A DNA stretch of 64,000 nt, taken from assembly GCA_018001015.1 (NCBI GenBank), contig JAGNIV010000009.1:62001-126000 (forward strand). Reading direction: 5' to 3'. This stretch comes from Phenylobacterium sp. Lineage in GTDB: Bacteria; Pseudomonadota; Alphaproteobacteria; Caulobacterales; Caulobacteraceae. Of this stretch, positions 16,573-24,932 are shown in pieces. Numbering within the stretch: the stretch's first letter is position 1; each line of letters begins with the position of its first letter. The notes under the pieces were generated by a model. That model worked only from the letters and a program-made list of their open reading frames with translations, was not told where the DNA came from and made no database searches. Position numbers and translations under genes: made by a program.

Positions 16573-17676
16573 TCACCGAATGACCGGCGCCGGCCGGGCC
16601 GCGACCCGTTGAACCGCGCCGCCGCGCTCGTACCAGCCCTTGGACCGGTTCACGATAGCCACGACAGAGAGCATGACCGGCACCTCGATCAGCACCCCGA
16701 CCACGGTGGCCAGGGCGGCGCCGGAGGTGAAGCCGAACAGGCTGATGGCCGCCGCCACGGCGAGCTCGAAGAAATTGCTGGCGCCGATCAATGCGGAAGG
16801 TCCGGCCACGCAGTGGGCTTCCCCCGTCATCCGGTTGAGGAGATAGGCCAGGCCGGAGTTGAAATAGACCTGAATCAGGATCGGTACGGCGAGCATCGCG
16901 ATGATCGCGGGATGGGCGACGATCTGTTGCCCCTGGAAACCGAAGAGCAGGACAAGAGTCGCCAGCAGGGCCGTGAGTGAGACCGGCCCGATACGGGTCA
17001 GAACACTCTGCAGACGAGGCTCGCCACCTTGCTTCATCAGCACGGATCGGAGCAGCTGCGCCACGATCACCGGCACGATGATGTAGAGGCCCACCGAGAG
17101 CAGCAGGGTCTCCCAGGGCACGGAGATGGCCGAAAGACCCAGCAGCAGCCCGACGATCGGCGCGAACGCCACGACCATGATGGCGTCGTTGACCGCCACC
17201 TGGCTCAGGGTGAAATTCGGCTCGCCTCGGGTCAGGTTGCTCCAGACAAACACCATCGCCGTGCACGGCGCGGCGGCGAGGATGATCAGGCCGGCAATGT
17301 AGCTGTTGATCTCTCCGGCCGGCAGGTAGGGCCGAAACAGGTAGCCGATGAAGAGGGCGCCGAGCGCCGCCATGGAGAACGGCTTCACCGCCCAGTTGAC
17401 GAACAGGGTGACGCCGATGCCGCGCCAGTGGCGGCCGACCTGGCGCATGGCCCGGAAGTCGACCTTCATAAGCATGGGGATGATCATCAGCCAGATCAGC
17501 ACCGCCACGGGCAGGTTGACCTTGGCGATCTCCGCCGAGCCGATGGCCTGGAATGCTGTCGGCAAGACATGACCCAGGGCCACGCCAACGACAATGCAGA
17601 GCGCCACCCAGACGGTGAGGAAGCGCTCGAAGCGCGACATGGGCGCCACGGCCGGGGCGGGCGGCTGGGGGGTCAT
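16573..17676 (-). CDS. acr3: ACR3-family arsenite efflux transporter
   Basis: A 367-residue integral membrane protein with ten predicted hydrophobic segments. The family motifs AAPCTAMVFVWS (with the conserved Cys of the transport site) and VNDAIMVVAFAPIV are present, as is the conserved Glu in GVLIEVPVMLS. ACR3 exports arsenite using the proton gradient. It is the third gene of the arsR-arsC-acr3 unit; its ATG overlaps the arsC stop (17673-17676). It converges on the small membrane gene 25 nt away. Confidence 0.95.
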   Translation of the reverse strand: MTPQPPAPAVAPMSRFERFLTVWVALCIVVGVALGHVLPTAFQAIGSAEIAKVNLPVAVLIWLMIIPMLMKVDFRAMRQVGRHWRGIGVTLFVNWAVKPFSMAALGALFIGYLFRPYLPAGEINSYIAGLIILAAAPCTAMVFVWSNLTRGEPNFTLSQVAVNDAIMVVAFAPIVGLLLGLSAISVPWETLLLSVGLYIIVPVIVAQLLRSVLMKQGGEPRLQSVLTRIGPVSLTALLATLVLLFGFQGQQIVAHPAIIAMLAVPILIQVYFNSGLAYLLNRMTGEAHCVAGPSALIGASNFFELAVAAAISLFGFTSGAALATVVGVLIEVPVMLSVVAIVNRSKGWYERGGAVQRVAARPAPVIR

Positions 17677-18188
17677 TGAGCGGAACTGGCCTGGTCGGCG
17701 CGCTCGCCGATCTCGCGCAGCCTGGCCTGTAGCGACATCCTGTCGAGCGACGCGAGGGGCAGGTTGAGGAAGAGCCGAATGCGGTTGCCAAGCAGGCGGG
17801 CGGCTTCAGCAAATGCGGCGCCGATCTGGGCTTCCGAGCCCTCCACCGCGGCAGGATCGGGCACGCCCCAATGGGCGGTCATCGGCTGGCCGGGCCAGAT
17901 CGGGCAGACTTCGCCCGCGGCGTTGTCACAGACCGTGAAGATGAAATCGAGCGCCGGCGCGCCGGGCTTGGCGAACTCTTCCCAGGATTTCGATCGAAAG
18001 TCGGTCAGCTGGAAGCCGCAGCTCTCGACGATGGGCCGGACATGGGGATTGACCCGCCCCGTCGGCATCGAACCGGCCGAATAGGCCTTGAAGCGACCCG
18101 CCCCCTCCTTGTTCATCAGCGCTTCGGCGATGACCGAGCGCGCCGAATTGCCGGTGCAAAGAAAGAGAACGTTGAACGGGGTGTCCAT
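17673..18188 (-). CDS. arsC: arsenate reductase, low-molecular-weight phosphatase type
   Basis: A 171-residue protein with the phosphatase P-loop C11-TGNSAR-S (C-x5-R) and a redox pair C87/C95 in [12 protein letters not shown], analogous to C82/C89 of the thioredoxin-coupled Staphylococcus enzyme, although the spacing is one residue longer. The general-acid Asp is in WGVPDPA (Asp111). It reduces arsenate to arsenite for export by the adjacent Acr3. It is longer than the 131-residue prototype because of a C-terminal helix extension. It starts 12 nt after arsR. Confidence 0.94.
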
Positions 18189-18200
18189 GGTCAGATATCC

Positions 18201-18560
18201 CTAGGCGTGGAGAGGTTCGGGGACGCAGCAGGCGGTTCGCGCCAGCACCTCGGCCAACGGCGCGCAGATCTCGGGGGAGCCGGCGCAGCAATCCTCCATC
18301 AGATAGCCCAGCAGCTGGCTCATCTGGTCGAAGCGCGCGCTGTAGATGATCGAGCGGCCGTCCCGCCGAGATGTCAGCAGGCCCGCGTGGCTGAGCACCT
18401 TCAGATTGGCGCTCAGGGTGTTGGGCGGAGCGTCAAGCCGCCGGGCGATCTCGCCCGCTGGCAGGCCCTGCGGACCTGCTTGAACGAGCATGCGAAAGGT
18501 CGCCAGGCGATTTTCGTGCGCGAGCGCGGACAAGCTGGCGATGGCGGTCTTGATTTCCAT
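18201..18560 (-). CDS. arsR: ArsR/SmtB-family arsenical repressor
   Basis: A 119-residue winged-helix regulator: [13 protein letters not shown], the recognition helix region [18 protein letters not shown], and the wing [11 protein letters not shown]. It lacks the ELCVCDL site of the classical ArsR; instead it has C91-C92 and C99 ([10 protein letters not shown]) plus C111-C112 near the C-terminus, resembling the C-terminal As(III) site of the Acidithiobacillus type. It should repress the leftward ars genes and possibly arsH. The ATG lies inside an inverted repeat, so the leader is very short or absent. Confidence 0.93.
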
Positions 18561-18582
18561 ATTTCAAAAGTAGCGGAAATAT
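18559..18582. promoter_or_regulatory. candidate ArsR operator in the arsR-arsH divergent region
   Basis: ATATTTC (18559-18565) and GAAATAT (18576-18582) form a perfect 7-bp inverted repeat with a 10-nt spacer in the 57-nt gap between the divergent genes. ArsR-family operators are typically short AT-rich dyads, and this is the only such dyad in the gap. The left arm covers part of the arsR start codon, suggesting leaderless translation of arsR or a close steric block. Confidence 0.55.
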
Positions 18583-18617
18583 ACGACAGTGTGAAGACAT
18601 GTGAGAGTTCAGTGCCG

Positions 18618-19352
18618 ATGTCCGAGTTTCCCGCCCTGCAGCCGCGGTTCCTGGCCGCGCCCGATGACGCCCTCCTCGAGCCCTCCGGGCGATCACGGCA
18701 TGCTCCGCGCATCCTGCTGCTCTACGGATCGCTGCGGGAGCGCTCCTTCAGCCGGCTCCTGGTGGAGGAGGCGGCGCGCATTCTTCAAAGGCTCGGCGCC
18801 GAGACCAAGATCTTCGATCCCCGCGAGCTGCCCCTGCCCGACGCGACCGCCGCTTCGCATCCGAAGGTGCAGGAGTTGCGCGCGCTTTCTCTGTGGTCGG
18901 AGGGCCAGGTCTGGTGCAGCCCTGAGCGGCACGGGGCGATCAGCGCGGTGATGAAGGCGCAGATCGATTGGATTCCACTTGAAGTCGGCAGTTTGCGGCC
19001 GACCCAGGGCCGCACCTTGGCGGTGATGCAGGTCAGCGGCGGCTCCCAGTCGTTCAACGCCGTCAACACCCTGCGGCTGCTGGGTCGCTGGATGCGGATG
19101 ATCACCATCCCCAACCAGTCTTCGGTGGCCAAGGCCTACACGGAGTTCGGCGACGACGACCGCATGAAGCCGTCGGCCTACTACGATCGCGTCGTCGATG
19201 TCATGGAAGAGCTGATGAAGTTCACCCTGCTGACCCGTGACCGCGCCGACTATCTGGTGGACCGCTACAGCGAACGCAAAGCGGCCGAGGGGACGACCAC
19301 CGGGACCGAGCTCGCGGCCGCCGCCATGGCTCACGAGACGCCAGGCGCCTAA
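18618..19352 (+). CDS. arsH: ArsH, NADPH-dependent FMN reductase / organoarsenical resistance
   Basis: A 244-residue flavodoxin-fold protein: phosphate-binding [21 protein letters not shown] (about 35-55), [23 protein letters not shown], and the conserved [25 protein letters not shown]. ArsH oxidises trivalent organoarsenicals and reduces FMN with NADPH. The ATG at 18618 follows GAGAG by about 10 nt; an in-frame extension into the arsC/arsR region is rejected as antisense. It completes the resistance cassette and is followed by an 11-bp hairpin shared with convergent purH. Confidence 0.95.
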
Positions 19353-19426: not shown

Positions 19427-21019
19427 CTAATGGCGGAAGACGCGCACGCCCGTGAACACCATGGCGATGCCGCGCTCGTCGGCGGCGTCGATGACCTTCT
19501 GATCGCCGATGGAGCCGCCCGGCTGGATGACGGCTGTGCAGCCGGCTTCGGCGGCCTGGATCAGGCCGTCGGGGAACGGGAAGAAGGCTTCCGAAGCGCA
19601 GGCCGAGCCCTTGAGGTCCAGGCCGAAGTCGGCGGCGCGCAGGGCCGCGATGCGGGCGCTATCCTTGCGGTTCATCTGGCCGGCGCCGACGCCAAGCGTC
19701 TGGCCCGCTCGGGCATAGACGATGGCGTTGGATTTCACGTGCTTGGCGATGGTGAAGGCGAACAACATGTCGCGGACTTCGTCGTCGGTGGGCGCGCGCT
19801 TGGTGACGACCTTGAGATCGGCCGCGGTCAGGCGAGCGTCGTCGCGGCTCTGCACCAGGAAGCCCCCGGACACCGACTTGAAGGTGGTCCCGGCCGCCAG
19901 GGGATCGGGCAGGCCGCCGGTGGTCAGCAGGCGCACATTCTTCTTCTTGGCGAACAGGGCGACCGCGTCGGCGTCGGCGTCCGGGGCGATCACCACCTCG
20001 GTGAGCAGCTTGAGGATTTCGGTGGCGGTGGCGGCGTCCAGCTTCTGGTTCAGGGCGATGATGCCGCCAAAGGCGCTGGTGGGGTCGCAGGCCAAGGCCC
20101 GCTCATAGGCCTCCACCATGGTCTTGCCGGTGGCCAGGCCGCACGGATTGGCGTGCTTGATGATGGCGCAGGCAGGACCGCTCGCGGGGTCGAACTCGGC
20201 GATCAGCTCGAAGGCCGCGTCGGTGTCGTTGATGTTGTTGTAGCTGAGCTCCTTGCCCTGGAGCTGTTTGGCGGTGGCCACGCCCGGACGCGGATCGGCG
20301 AAGCGGTAGAAACTGGCCGACTGGTGGGGATTCTCTCCATAGCGCATGGTCTGGACCAGCTCCCCGCCGATGGCCTTGCGCTTCGGCGCCGTGTCGCCCA
20401 GCGCCTGAGCGAACCAGGCGGAGATCGCCGCGTCATAGGTGGCGGTGCGGGCATAGGCCCGCGCGGCCAGGGTCTTGCGCAGCGCCAGGCTGGTGGTCCC
20501 GGTGGCCTTCAGTTCGGCCAGCACCTCTTGCAGATCGGCGATCTCGGTGCAGACACAGACATAGCCGTGGTTCTTGGCCGCCGAGCGGATCATGGCCGGC
20601 CCGCCGATGTCGATGTTCTCGACGCAGGTTTCGAAGTCGCCCCCGGCCGCCACCGTCTGCTCGAAGGGGTAGAGGTTCACATAGACCAGGTCGATGCCGC
20701 CGATGCCGTGGTCCGCCATGGCCTTGGCGTGGTCAGGGGCGTCGCGAACGGCCAGCAAGCCGCCATGGACGATGGGGTGCAGGGTCTTGACCCGGCCGTC
20801 CATCATCTCAGGGAAGCTGGTGAGGTCGGAGATGTCCTTCACCGCCAGGCCGGCGGCGGCGATGGCGGCTCGGGTGCCGCCGGTGGAGACCAGTTCGACG
20901 CCAAGCTCGGCCAGAACCTTGGCGGCGTCGATGAGGCCGGTCTTGTCGGAGACGGAAATCAGGGCGCGCCGGATAGGGGCGTGGTCGGCGGGTTTGGGGA
21001 AGTCGGGGGCTGCGGGCAC
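19427..21019 (-). CDS. purH: bifunctional AICAR formyltransferase / IMP cyclohydrolase
   Basis: PurH catalyses the last two steps of IMP synthesis. The 530-residue protein has the N-terminal cyclohydrolase ([36 protein letters not shown]) and the C-terminal transformylase with [11 protein letters not shown], the catalytic KHANPCGLA motif and a C-terminal [36 protein letters not shown]. Start is GTG at 21019; the preceding AAGGA lies 6 nt upstream inside a hairpin that forms the expression platform of a ZTP-type leader. The heparinase-like gene ends 131 nt upstream. Confidence 0.98.
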
Positions 21020-21122
21020 GGCAAATCCTTCATCGTTTCAGGAATTTGCCCAGGCGAGCGGCATATGGACCCCGCGCTCCCCGGTGGTCTCCCACCTCAG
21101 TTCGCCAGTCACGCAGGTCGCG
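21020..21122 (-). promoter_or_regulatory. ZTP (pfl) riboswitch in the purH leader
   Basis: Read on the minus strand, the leader contains GACTGGCGAAC, then GGTGGGAGACCACCGGGGAG, a variable stem and CCGCTCGCCTGGGC. This order and spacing match the consensus of the pfl/ZTP riboswitch, which senses the purine intermediate ZMP/ZTP. Immediately after the aptamer, GGCAAATTCCT pairs with AGGATTTGCC, sequestering the AAGGA ribosome-binding site directly before the GTG of purH. The 5' strand of that hairpin overlaps the conserved 3' end of the aptamer (GGGC), so ligand binding should free the site: a translational ON switch. It makes sense because PurH consumes ZMP. Confidence 0.9.
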
Positions 21123-21150
21123 GTGGCTGTAGGCCCGTGGCGAGATTTCG

Positions 21151-22878
21151 TCAATGCGGCGGGGGCCAGGCCTCGGCGGCCGCGAGCTTCCAGCGCACCC
21201 GGGCGCCGGCGTCCAGGCGGGCGTTGCCGCGCAGCACGATCTGGTGGGTCCGCTTGGGCAGGCCCTCCTGGAAATAGACCGAGGTTTCCACGGCCACTTC
21301 CTGGGCATCATTGCGCAACCACCAGCCGGTCTCATCGCCCTCGGCCCGCAACAGCACGCTCTTGCCGTCCCGCGCCAGGCTGGCGCGGACGTCGGGATGG
21401 ACGTGGAAGCGGACCATGAAGGGCGTGAAACGGCGGGCTTCCGGGTCGCCGCCGGGCTCGGACACCGGCGTCAGCCGCTCCTCGCCCCGCAGTTCGTCGG
21501 CGGCCAGGTCCAGGAACAGGCGGCGCTCGTGGCGCAGGCCAAAGCGTGGAACCCAACCCTCGTGCGACATCTCCAGCCACAGGGCCTGGGGCGTCTCGTG
21601 GCGCTGGGCGGCGACCGCGTCATAGGCGTCGACCAGGCGCGGGCCCAGGGCGTTGGCCCGGAAACCGCGCAAGGGTTCACCGCAGGACGCGTCCCCAACC
21701 CCCACCGTCGAACTGGCGTCGGCCAGGCGCAGGGCCTGGGGGCCGTTGGCCTCCGGCGACCAGGCGCAGGCGACGATCATGCGGCGGCCCGCCGCGAGCA
21801 CCTCGATGGCGAGCGGCTGGGCGCAGGCGGTTACGCTCCAGGCCCCTTCGGCGGGCGGGGCGCAATCGGCGAGGATCTGCAGGCTACGGCCCTCCAGCCG
21901 CTGATAGCCGTTGCGGGCGACCGGCGCGCGCTGGACCGACGCCTCGCTGGCGCGGGCGGCGGCGACATAGTGTCGGCTGGCCGCCTCCCCGCCCTGCAGG
22001 TCGGGCAGACAGCCGTCGGCCAGGGTGAAGAAGCGCACGGCGCCGGTCAGCCGGTCCATGGCCCGCATCATTTCGTCGGGCGCCGCGATGCCACGCTGCA
22101 CCAGGGCCTCGTCCAGGGCCTGCAAATCCAGCAGCAGCTCCAACGCCGCCCGCGGACTGCGCGAGGCGTGGCCGCCGTCGGGCTGGACGGTCACGGGCAG
22201 CGCGCGTTCGAGGCGCAGGAGCCCATGATCGATGATTTTTTCCCCGGCTTCACCGGACAGGACCGTCCCGGCCAGGGTTGCGGCCACGGCGCGTTCGGCG
22301 GCCCGCACCGGACCGTCGATGCTGTCGAGCAGGTGCCGGGCCTGGCGGGCGATATCCAGGGTGATCAGGGCGACCTCGGCGTCAGAGGCCTGGGCACACA
22401 GGGTCCTCGCCGCGCAGGCCAGGTTGAAGGTTCGCCGCTCAAGCACCTCCGGCGCCCAGGAGAACCCGTTCCAGCGGCCGAACACCCGGCTCCAGTCGAG
22501 GGTCAGGCGCAGACCCTCCGCCGCGCCGGCCTCCCCGGTGGAGAGCAGGTCGGGCATCCAGTCGAAGCGGTGCAGGATCGCGGCGAACCGGCGGGTCGGG
22601 CTGGGCCGGTCCCAGGGATCGCCGCGGGTTCCCGTCTCCAGGGTCGCGCCGCCGAACACGAAGCGGCCGTCCAGGATGCGGCGGCCGGCCTCCGGATTGA
22701 CCGGGCGGGGATTGCGCGGACTCGCGGCCAGGCCCTCGGGCCGAGGACGCGCCAGCAGCCAGCGATGCAGGGGGTTGCCCGCCCACTCGCGGCGCGCCTG
22801 GCGCTTCAGGCCTTGGGCAAGCGCGAGAAGGAAGACTCGGCCGGGCAGGCGTGACAAAGCCGGAAGGCCGCCCGCCAT
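21151..22878 (-). CDS. heparinase II/III family protein
   Basis: A 575-residue protein with an N-terminal alpha-helical toroid region and a C-terminal heparinase II/III-like beta domain (from about 340: GYQRLEGRSLQILADCAPP, then LWLEMSHEGWVPRFGLRHERRLFLD). A gene of this family commonly lies between rpe and purH in Alphaproteobacteria. Substrate is unknown; an exopolysaccharide or glycosaminoglycan-like uronate polymer is possible but unproven. No clear signal peptide is seen, though the N-terminus is basic and hydrophobic. It starts 7 nt after rpe. Confidence 0.88.
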   Translation of the reverse strand: MAGGLPALSRLPGRVFLLALAQGLKRQARREWAGNPLHRWLLARPRPEGLAASPRNPRPVNPEAGRRILDGRFVFGGATLETGTRGDPWDRPSPTRRFAAILHRFDWMPDLLSTGEAGAAEGLRLTLDWSRVFGRWNGFSWAPEVLERRTFNLACAARTLCAQASDAEVALITLDIARQARHLLDSIDGPVRAAERAVAATLAGTVLSGEAGEKIIDHGLLRLERALPVTVQPDGGHASRSPRAALELLLDLQALDEALVQRGIAAPDEMMRAMDRLTGAVRFFTLADGCLPDLQGGEAASRHYVAAARASEASVQRAPVARNGYQRLEGRSLQILADCAPPAEGAWSVTACAQPLAIEVLAAGRRMIVACAWSPEANGPQALRLADASSTVGVGDASCGEPLRGFRANALGPRLVDAYDAVAAQRHETPQALWLEMSHEGWVPRFGLRHERRLFLDLAADELRGEERLTPVSEPGGDPEARRFTPFMVRFHVHPDVRASLARDGKSVLLRAEGDETGWWLRNDAQEVAVETSVYFQEGLPKRTHQIVLRGNARLDAGARVRWKLAAAEAWPPPH

Positions 22879-22885
22879 GCTCGCC

Positions 22886-23545
22886 CTACCCGCCCTTCAG
22901 GGCGGCGATATTGGCGGCGTAGGCGCTGGGCCCGCCCTTGAACACCGCGGTCCCGGCCACCAGGGCCGTCGCGCCGGCGGCCATGCAGAGCGGCGCGGTC
23001 TCCACCGTCACCCCGCCATCGACCTCAAGGTCGATGTCGCGGTCGCCGATCATCTCCCGCAGCTTCGCGATCTTGGCGAGCTGGGAATGCATGAACTTCT
23101 GGCCGCCGAAGCCGGGGTTGATGGACATCACCAGGATCAGGTCGATCTCGTCCATCATCCACTCGATCACCGAGGGCGAGGTGGACGGGTTGAACACCAC
23201 GCCGGCCTTGCAGCCCAGTTCGCGGATTCGCTTCAGCGTGCGGTTCAGGTGCGGGCCGCTCTCCGGATGGACGCTGATGATATCGGCGCCGGCCTGCGCG
23301 AAGGCTTCCAGGTAGTTGTCCGCCGGGGCGATCATCAGGTGGACGTCGAAGGGGATCGAGACGTGGGGCTTCAGCGCCTTCACGATGTCGGGACCGAGCG
23401 TGATGTTGGGCACGAAGTGGCCGTCCATCACATCGATATGCAGCCAGTCGGCGCCCGCCGCCTCAACGGCGCGGCATTCCTCCCCCAGCTTGGCGAAGTC
23501 GGACGCCAGGATGGACGGGGCGATGATCGGGGTGCGCGCGGTCAT
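22886..23545 (-). CDS. rpe: ribulose-phosphate 3-epimerase
   Basis: A 219-residue TIM-barrel protein: [17 protein letters not shown], the metal-binding [36 protein letters not shown] and [11 protein letters not shown]. It interconverts ribulose-5-phosphate and xylulose-5-phosphate in the pentose phosphate pathway. All metal ligands of the family appear conserved. It is followed closely by the heparinase-like gene. Confidence 0.97.
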
Positions 23546-23645
23546 GGTCCCGACTTAGCGGCGCCGGATGGCCGGGACAAGGCAGACCTTGGACTTGGAG
23601 GGGGATGCGGGCGGAAAGCCGGTTCCCACCTTTCCTCACCCCCCT

Positions 23646-24932
23646 CTAGACTTGGCGGATGTAGCGGGCGACGAAGAAGCCGTCCGTTCCGCCCACAAGG
23701 TGATGTGGCAGGATTCTGAGCGTGCCGTCGGACCGCAGACTGGCCTCCGGCGCTCCACCTTCGCCGGGCGTCATGGGCGCCAGGGCGAATTCCGGGTTGC
23801 GGGCCAGGAAGCCGGGGGTCTGGGCCTCGCCCTCCTCCGGCTCCAGGGAGCAGACGCAATAGACCAGGCGACCGCCCGGCTTCACCCGTTTGGCGGCGGA
23901 ATCCAGCAGCCGGGACTGGACGCCGGCCAGGGCGGCGACGTCGCCGGGCTTGGCCGCCCAGAGCACATCGGGGTTGCGACGATAGGTGCCCGTGGCGCTG
24001 CAGGGCGCGTCCAGCAGCACGGCGTCGAAGGTGCGCTGATCGGGCCAGCTTCCGGCGTCGTCGGTGGCGGTCTCGGCGGTGAGCCCCATGCGGGCGAGGT
24101 TCTCGGCGACCCGGACCAGGCGCGGGGCCGAACGATCGACGGCCACGACCGAGGCGCCGGCGGCGGCCAGTTGCAGGGTCTTGCCGCCGGGGGCGGCGCA
24201 GAGGTCCAGAGCGCTCTCGCCGGGCTGCACGGCCAGCAGTCGCGCGGGCACGGCGGCGCTGGCGTCCTGCACCCACCAGACGCCGTCGGCGAAGCCGGGC
24301 CAGGTGGAGATCTCACCGCGCAGGGCCGAGCGCAGGGTCCCACCGGAGAGTTCTTCGGCCTCCAAGGCCACGGTCAGGTCGGGCGACGACGCCTTGAGGC
24401 TGAGGTCGGTGGCCGGTTCGGCGGCGATCAGGGTGGCCATGGCGCGGGCGGCGGGCTCGCCGAAGGCCGCCGACCAGCGGCTGAACAGCCAGGGGGGGGC
24501 CAACAGCTCCGGATCGGTCATGTCCGGCGGCTCGCGGGTCAGGCCGCGCAGGATGGCGTTGACCACGCCCTTGAAGGCCCGGCCCTCCTTCAACTCGGCC
24601 ACCAGATCGACACTGGTTCCCACGGCGGCGAAGGCCGGCGTGCCCAGCACGAAGGCCTGGGCGGCGCCGAGGCGCAGGATGTTGCGCACCACCTCGGGCG
24701 GCTCGCGGGAGATGCGGCCATCCAGGGCCCGGTCGATGGGACCGAGATGGCGAAGGGTGGCCAGCACCAGGGCGCGGGCGAAACCCCGGTCGCGGGGCTC
24801 CAGGTTGCGGAAGGCCGGCGTGGCGGCCGCCTCGTCGAAGCCCGAGCGGCGGTTCAGGGCCGCGGTGAGCAGGTCGAGGGCGGCGCGGCGCGCAGGCAAG
24901 CCGGCGGCGTCAGGGGCTGAAAGGTCGGTCAC
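23646..24932 (-). CDS. rsmB: 16S rRNA (cytosine-5)-methyltransferase, RsmB family
   Basis: A 428-residue protein with an N-terminal NusB-like helical domain (about 12-140) and a C-terminal Rossmann methyltransferase. The motifs are LDLCAAPGGKTLQLAAAG, VAVDRSAPRL, the first catalytic Cys in DAPCSATGTYRRNPD and the second in YCVCSLEPEEGE. The family methylates C967 of 16S rRNA in E. coli. It starts with GTG at 24932, 190 nt from the divergent DUF1674 gene, and leads the rsmB-rpe-heparinase-purH group. Confidence 0.94.
   Translation of the reverse strand: MTDLSAPDAAGLPARRAALDLLTAALNRRSGFDEAAATPAFRNLEPRDRGFARALVLATLRHLGPIDRALDGRISREPPEVVRNILRLGAAQAFVLGTPAFAAVGTSVDLVAELKEGRAFKGVVNAILRGLTREPPDMTDPELLAPPWLFSRWSAAFGEPAARAMATLIAAEPATDLSLKASSPDLTVALEAEELSGGTLRSALRGEISTWPGFADGVWWVQDASAAVPARLLAVQPGESALDLCAAPGGKTLQLAAAGASVVAVDRSAPRLVRVAENLARMGLTAETATDDAGSWPDQRTFDAVLLDAPCSATGTYRRNPDVLWAAKPGDVAALAGVQSRLLDSAAKRVKPGGRLVYCVCSLEPEEGEAQTPGFLARNPEFALAPMTPGEGGAPEASLRSDGTLRILPHHLVGGTDGFFVARYIRQV

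Follow-up and report, generated by a model that had tools for sequence, protein, structure and literature searches.

A ZMP/ZTP riboswitch in front of purH in Phenylobacterium and a candidate translational switch by exchange of a P3 strand

The leader of purH in this Phenylobacterium genome raises the question whether a ligand-sensing RNA placed directly ahead of a start codon could control translation by sharing one strand of its aptamer with a hairpin that hides the Shine–Dalgarno sequence (SD), as was proposed in an earlier note on this DNA.

The aptamer and its genomic setting

Within the window, by which we mean the whole stretch of 64,000 nucleotides (64 kb) analyzed, cmscan places a match to the Rfam model RF01750 (ZMP/ZTP riboswitch, pfl motif) at positions 21122–21041 of the minus strand, with a score of 62.2 bits against a gathering score of 39, an E-value of 1.1e-07 for the 64 kb window and full coverage of the model (positions 1–86 of 86). 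A search of the 4.0 Mb genome returned this match only (E 1.6e-9). The earlier note had named the lack of a covariance-model hit as grounds for giving up the assignment; with this match, the aptamer is clearly beyond chance in the window. The conserved pfl/ZTP blocks listed there, GACTGGCGAAC, GGTGGGA..CCACCGGGGAG and CCGC..GCCTGGGC, are all present on the minus strand and in the expected order. The domain layout of the class, P1–J1/2–P2 and a P3 hairpin joined by a linker, is borne out by the structure line and by a pair check. It comprises, all on the minus strand, helix P1 with an inner two-pair extension (21069–21119; 5′ strand 21119–21111, 3′ strand 21077–21069; cmscan pairs checked base by base), the P2 hairpin with its GTGG/CCAC core (21084–21095; cmscan structure line and RNAfold) and helix P3 (21047–21063; cmscan structure line, pairs checked), in which TGCC (21063–21060) pairs with GGCA (21050–21047). 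Both halves of the pseudoknot are present and complementary in the sequence, the 5′ half being GGCG in J1/2 (21103–21106) and the 3′ half CGCC in the P3 loop (21053–21056, facing 21106–21103). The pair check also revealed three non-standard model pairs in this copy, the two outer ones of P1 (C–C and A–G) and the outermost one of P3 (A–A), as might be expected of a degraded aptamer that has lost ZMP binding. We regard such decay as extremely improbable, since the match is full length and well over threshold, the pseudoknot halves and four P3 pairs are intact, and RF01750 is found, whatever the gene downstream, in 53 of the 55 other genomes of the same genus among those listed.

The aptamer ends 21 nt before the GTG start codon (21019) of purH (19427–21019, minus strand), which encodes a bifunctional AICAR transformylase/IMP cyclohydrolase of 530 amino acids with Pfam domains AICARFT_IMPCHas (E 2.5e-120) and MGS (E 3.7e-24), and whose closest relatives among the best 80 of 571 matches are from Phenylobacterium (95–96%). 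The RF01750 match and these domains together uphold the placement of a ZTP-type riboswitch before purH. The class is found upstream of purine or one-carbon genes, and the leader, a rather typical though well-conserved member of the known ZMP/ZTP riboswitches, sits in its expected gene context. Upstream lies a gene of the Hepar_II_III_C family (21151–22878, minus strand; ORF with Pfam PF07940, E 1e-35), the stop codon of which is only 28 nt before the aptamer, so that the purH promoter would be situated at least partly inside this gene or further upstream. A search restricted to promoters of the sigma-70-like type found none in 20900–21500. The genes from 19427 to 24932 lie on the same strand in the order RsmB/F, ribulose-phosphate epimerase, heparinase-like and purH. 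At 16573–19352 the window contains the Pfam families HTH_20, LMWPc and SBF, with FMN_red on the other strand, which we take to be ArsR-, ArsC-, ACR3- and ArsH-like, respectively, and probably an arsenic-resistance cluster.

The hairpin over the Shine–Dalgarno sequence and its conservation

The aptamer was said to be followed by a hairpin able to mask an AAGGA 6 nt before the GTG, and we recovered this element as described. The SD, AAGGA (21026–21030, minus strand), lies 6 nt 5′ of the GTG, and RNAfold pairs a 5′ arm, GGCAAATTCCT (21050–21040), with a 3′ arm, AGGATTTGCC (21029–21020), into a hairpin (21050–21020, minus strand) of ten pairs and one bulged T, GGCAAAT-T-CCT/AGG-ATTTGCC, in which AGGA of the SD is paired. 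Its energy is −12.3 kcal/mol (RNAfold, 35-mer), its z-score against shuffles −2.8 and the pairing probability of the SD 0.98. The overlap of the 5′ arm with the last aptamer block likewise stands: the strand GGCA (21047–21050, minus strand) would belong to P3, as its 3′ strand, when the switch is ON and to the 5′ arm of the hairpin when it is OFF, so that an alternative helix having a strand in common with the aptamer sequesters the SD. These four P3 bases are the whole of the overlap with aptamer helices; past GGCA the hairpin runs only into unpaired positions at the 3′ end of RF01750.

Taken singly, the hairpin at purH is unremarkable in GC-rich DNA and constitutes weak evidence. We assembled the SD-bearing ORF starts of the window (ORFs of at least 200 codons, first start with an SD, as predicted and with starts unverified as genes; n = 57, purH included) and found hairpins of −12.3 kcal/mol or lower at nine of the 57, purH being one of the nine (8/56 without purH), and the SD mostly paired at 23 of the 57. 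Stability of the whole leader was uninformative and was dropped as evidence, with a z-score of −0.29 and 73 of 200 shuffles folding as well. The hairpin gains its significance because both arms are conserved and co-vary in relatives.

The purH relatives comprised the best 80 of 571 loci, of which 78 were usable, the contig ending before the leader in two (L079 and L080). The block of P3 loop and 3′ strand, CGCCTGGGC, was recognized by motif and by eye, rather than by covariance model, in front of purH at 74 of the 78 loci. The same motif search and inspection recognized no ZTP block in the purH leaders of the other four (L067, L068, L074 and L075), so that some Caulobacteraceae lineages appear to have lost or to lack the switch. 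The 74 loci and the window yield 75 leaders with 73 distinct tails. For 71 of the 73, the probability that the SD four-mer pairs within the 5′ arm (the first 16 nt) exceeds 0.5, the exceptions being L069 (0.44) and L062, where no SD four-mer was recognized and the value is meaningless. GGGC is paired with the 3′ half in all 73 tails, and at least three of its four bases are used in 72 of the 73 minimum-energy folds, window included. The mean z-score against GGGC-keeping shuffles is −2.1, with 62 of 73 tails below −1. As to co-variation, summed pairing energies amount to −899.5 kcal/mol for each tail's own arms versus −753.5 kcal/mol (sd 19.5) for permuted arms, and none of 10,000 permutations equals the own arms, a statistic that ignores the relatedness of the loci.

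The arms fall largely into two registers. In the first (33 tails), the 3′ arm directly abuts the start codon; these tails were picked partly for ending in GCC, a choice that dictates the first three pairs (GGC of the aptamer with GCC). Standard pairs occupy 257 of 297 cells, versus 165–174 of 297 when the arms are slid by one to three bases, a gap stemming in part from the selected pairs, and the fourth pair is A–U in 24 tails, G–C in three, G–U in one and mismatched in five. The second register (27 tails, picked by the 5′ arm GGGCUCC) has as partner GGAGUCC in 18 tails, GGAGCCC in two and another sequence in seven. The remaining 13 of 73 tails fit neither rule. Caulobacter vibrioides (L038, L041) has the same design before purH, and by sequence comparison almost all examined Caulobacteraceae purH leaders with a P3 block retain the predicted hairpin with its use of the P3 3′ strand. 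The overlap platform, put forward earlier as special to this purH, is instead the rule among the relatives examined.

These data bear on the reading that the aptamer senses ZMP while the hairpin is incidental GC-rich structure, with the folded aptamer sterically blocking the ribosome. Hairpins as stable as that of purH do occur at the eight non-purH starts mentioned above, and individual relatives (for example L069, L072 and L081) display no real gain over shuffles, both of which speak for this reading. We nonetheless consider it very unlikely, as the arms co-vary in two registers and beat every permutation, as 16 nt separate the end of P3 from the SD, and as ZMP would then be an OFF signal, contrary to the logic of the class. 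The aptamer, its location, the hairpin, the conservation of these elements and the co-variation of the arms are what the data support directly.

Measured in 73 relatives, the GGGGAG-like block and the CGCC of the P3 loop lie 19–119 nt apart (median 21). Both pseudoknot halves are present in 73 of 73 relatives by construction, since both are in the search motifs, and this count lends no covariation support. Four relatives (L031, L045, L049 and L052; 4/73) have linkers of 76–119 nt with partly self-complementary inserts. Linker inserts, partly shared between Caulobacter species, occur also in L097, L099 and L101, with the aptamer blocks intact in all of these leaders. An exact 17-mer of a Caulobacter insert was found once in genome G126 and was absent from the five other genomes queried, and the 83-nt insert of L049 was found as itself in its own genome (G630), once in G631, not in G197, and twice each in G126 and G632, the places in the latter two being identical, so that these may be one genome. 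By both searches the inserts are not high-copy, and an origin from a dispersed repeat was set aside.

Proposed strand exchange and release of the Shine–Dalgarno sequence

Folding of the aptamer and masking of the SD had been described as mutually exclusive, and our models support competition but not strict exclusion. With GGGCA withheld from pairing, the calculated cost of opening the SD in the window falls from 7.2 to 2.9 kcal/mol, and over the 73 tails with GGGC(A) withheld the mean falls from 7.5 to 3.9 kcal/mol, the decrease being 2 kcal/mol or more in 55 tails and less in 18, of which three rise. In the same energy model a UUCC/GGAA hairpin of about −3 kcal/mol remains over the SD when P3 is held, and in a 143-nt model with the aptamer helices forced the SD stays paired (mean unpaired 0.23, versus 0.21 when free). 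A nested energy model never picked the aptamer fold as minimum at any of ten transcript lengths, the aptamer alone included, because the pseudoknot and the ligand are not represented in it; apart from the SD opening costs, this model of the switch was therefore set aside. The modeled aptamer and hairpin states thus appear to compete, with exclusion partial rather than absolute, and in view of the residual hairpin SD release is probably partial as well, with kinetics or the ribosome needed to complete it.

In our view the leader is highly likely to be a ZMP/ZTP riboswitch, switching purH translation ON through exchange of the P3 strand. When ZMP (AICAR)/ZTP is scarce, the GCC before the GTG together with the SD would displace the 5′ strand of P3, and the displacing bases would pair with GGCAAAUUCCU, whereby AGGA is hidden. 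When ZMP accumulates, for instance when 10-formyl-THF is short, the aptamer would form during transcription and ZMP would lock the P1/P3 pseudoknot, so that GGCA stays in P3. The SD would then be left in a weak hairpin that ribosomes could open, and more PurH would be made and would consume ZMP. In this scheme we infer that this copy binds ZMP, in which direction control runs, that its main level is translation and not the stability of the transcript, and that switching is kinetic, in the course of transcription.

Masked, untranslated messages are open to Rho, and a working aptamer could act chiefly on elongation or stability of the transcript, through access of Rho or RNase, with SD masking as the first step only. 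The leader, placed 28 nt after the upstream gene, would in its masked, untranslated form be exposed to Rho, and the UUCC/GGAA remnant that covers the SD with the aptamer held may leave SD release alone with a small effect, so that this alternative has something to recommend it. We judge it unlikely, for no terminator-like site (GC-rich stem followed by a U run) is present in 20900–21500, and a TTTTT within 51 nt after P3, found at seven of the 74 P3-block loci, always precedes the SD, within the 5′ arm or the loop of the hairpin. At two of these seven loci (L016 and L017), though, TTTTT follows the short stem of P3 by one base. Lacking any such site in 20900–21500, control by way of an intrinsic-terminator platform was rejected. 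A leader peptide, running from an ATG at 21063 through P3 to a TGA by 21037, was likewise discarded; the ATG is in place in only 12 of 74 relatives and was taken as chance. Strand exchange that acts on translation is the reading we retain in what follows.

Known ZTP riboswitches and further copies in the family and class

Some ZTP riboswitches reportedly act on translation, as Kim et al. are said to have described in 2015. The literature searched, with subscription journals mostly outside it, held no prior account of a translational ZTP platform in Caulobacteraceae. As far as the available portions of the cited papers go, the riboswitch class, its link with purH and competition for P3 (with terminators) are already published. 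In the 2010 paper on pfl RNA (Weinberg et al., PMC2864571), the accessible text names purH first of five genes and infers ON control by way of overlapping transcription terminators; the leader described here matches that RNA in its aptamer, its position before purH and its expected ON logic, and differs in that the overlapping strand masks the SD, with no terminator found. For a transcription-acting ZTP riboswitch, what is available of PMC10085676 and PMC10907184 gives a downstream strand competing with P3 as the mechanism, so that in this respect too the overlap is not particular to the Phenylobacterium leader. In the Clostridium beijerinckii pfl riboswitch, the accessible part of PMC10085676 has an invader displace P3 to form an intrinsic terminator unless ligand is bound, and it reports invaders of purH-linked Clostridium versions tested as chimeras. 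There, as is proposed for Phenylobacterium, a downstream strand competes for the 3′ strand of P3, and ligand blocks the invasion; the product in Phenylobacterium, however, would be an SD-hiding hairpin ending at the start codon. By analogy, the purH leader would employ the same P3 competition, but to form an SD-masking hairpin where the Clostridium RNA makes a terminator. The available text of PMC10117056 describes the ZTP leader of rhtB in Pectobacterium carotovorum (83 bp plus 17 nt of coding sequence in a translational lacZ fusion), the reporter of which rises with trimethoprim and requires a ligand-binding aptamer. It resembles our leader in being proteobacterial, short and located directly before the coding sequence, and differs in its gene, rhtB instead of purH.

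The spread of RF01750 was surveyed with stricter filters, by which weak matches are lost. In the family sample a match at E 0.001 occurs in 136 of 249 genomes, 131 of which reach the cut-off, and in 11 of 22 genera; in the class sample 21 of 385 genomes have one. Ten genomes with two matches were opened, and the targets of the second copies assigned by reading frames and by eye. In three the second copy precedes glyA (L082, L084 and L094) and in six a LysE/RhtB-type transporter gene (L089, L091, L093, L096, L098 and L100), rhtB being a known ZTP target in Pectobacterium (PMC10117056, available part). The downstream fragment of L089, the sole one of these six scanned, matches Pfam LysE with 45.4 bits; as guesses, the exported substrate may be AICA-riboside or an amino acid. 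In the tenth genome (G175), the second match (L087; 53.2 bits) is odd in its P3 region, has no target gene clearly in view, and is perhaps a decaying or chance copy. Both LysE-type leaders folded (L089 and L093) form a GGCGC/GCGCC clamp with the SD inside, while neither of the two glyA leaders folded gives a clean purH-like clamp, the SD lying outside the clamp in L082 and being partly paired in L084.

In the class sample, the 22 loci other than that of the window were assigned by eye to glyA (nine), DJ-1/PfpI-type (four), purH (three), LysE-type (three) and folD (two), and one is cut by a contig end. ZTP aptamers were observed before glyA-like frames in L105, L106, L108, L111, L112, L114, L117, L120 and L121 (by eye, class and family) and before DJ-1/PfpI-type genes in L104, L107, L113 and L119 (L107 scanned, the rest by eye). 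Three fragments of this sample were scanned, giving DJ-1_PfpI at 40.1 bits for L107, LysE at 54.4 bits for L115, and LysE at 19.6 bits, below the cut-off of 25.6, for L109. With starts as predicted, a GGC...GCC clamp precedes the start in, for example, L103, L106, L110, L114 and L123, and was not seen before the predicted starts of L112, L113, L118 and L119 in the class sample.

The purH leader leaves knowledge of the class and of purH control unchanged. The re-coding of the arms around a P3 strand that stays fixed is useful for comparison, but does not amount to a new kind of system. On balance we favor the view that the ZTP riboswitches of Caulobacteraceae constitute a coherent branch acting on translation, with the SD and start-proximal bases as the invader of P3 and the anti-SD arm re-coded at least twice (GGCAUUU and GGGCUCC types) around a fixed GGGC, and that in the family and class a similar GGC...GCC clamp recurs at some, but not all, of the copies before purH, folD, glyA and LysE/RhtB. 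The folding studies PMC10085676, PMC7337938 and PMC7484762 used, in their available portions, terminator versions, and the purH leader offers a compact ZTP case that is expected to act on translation, with the natural arm re-codings around the fixed strand providing a ready data set for the energetics of strand exchange.
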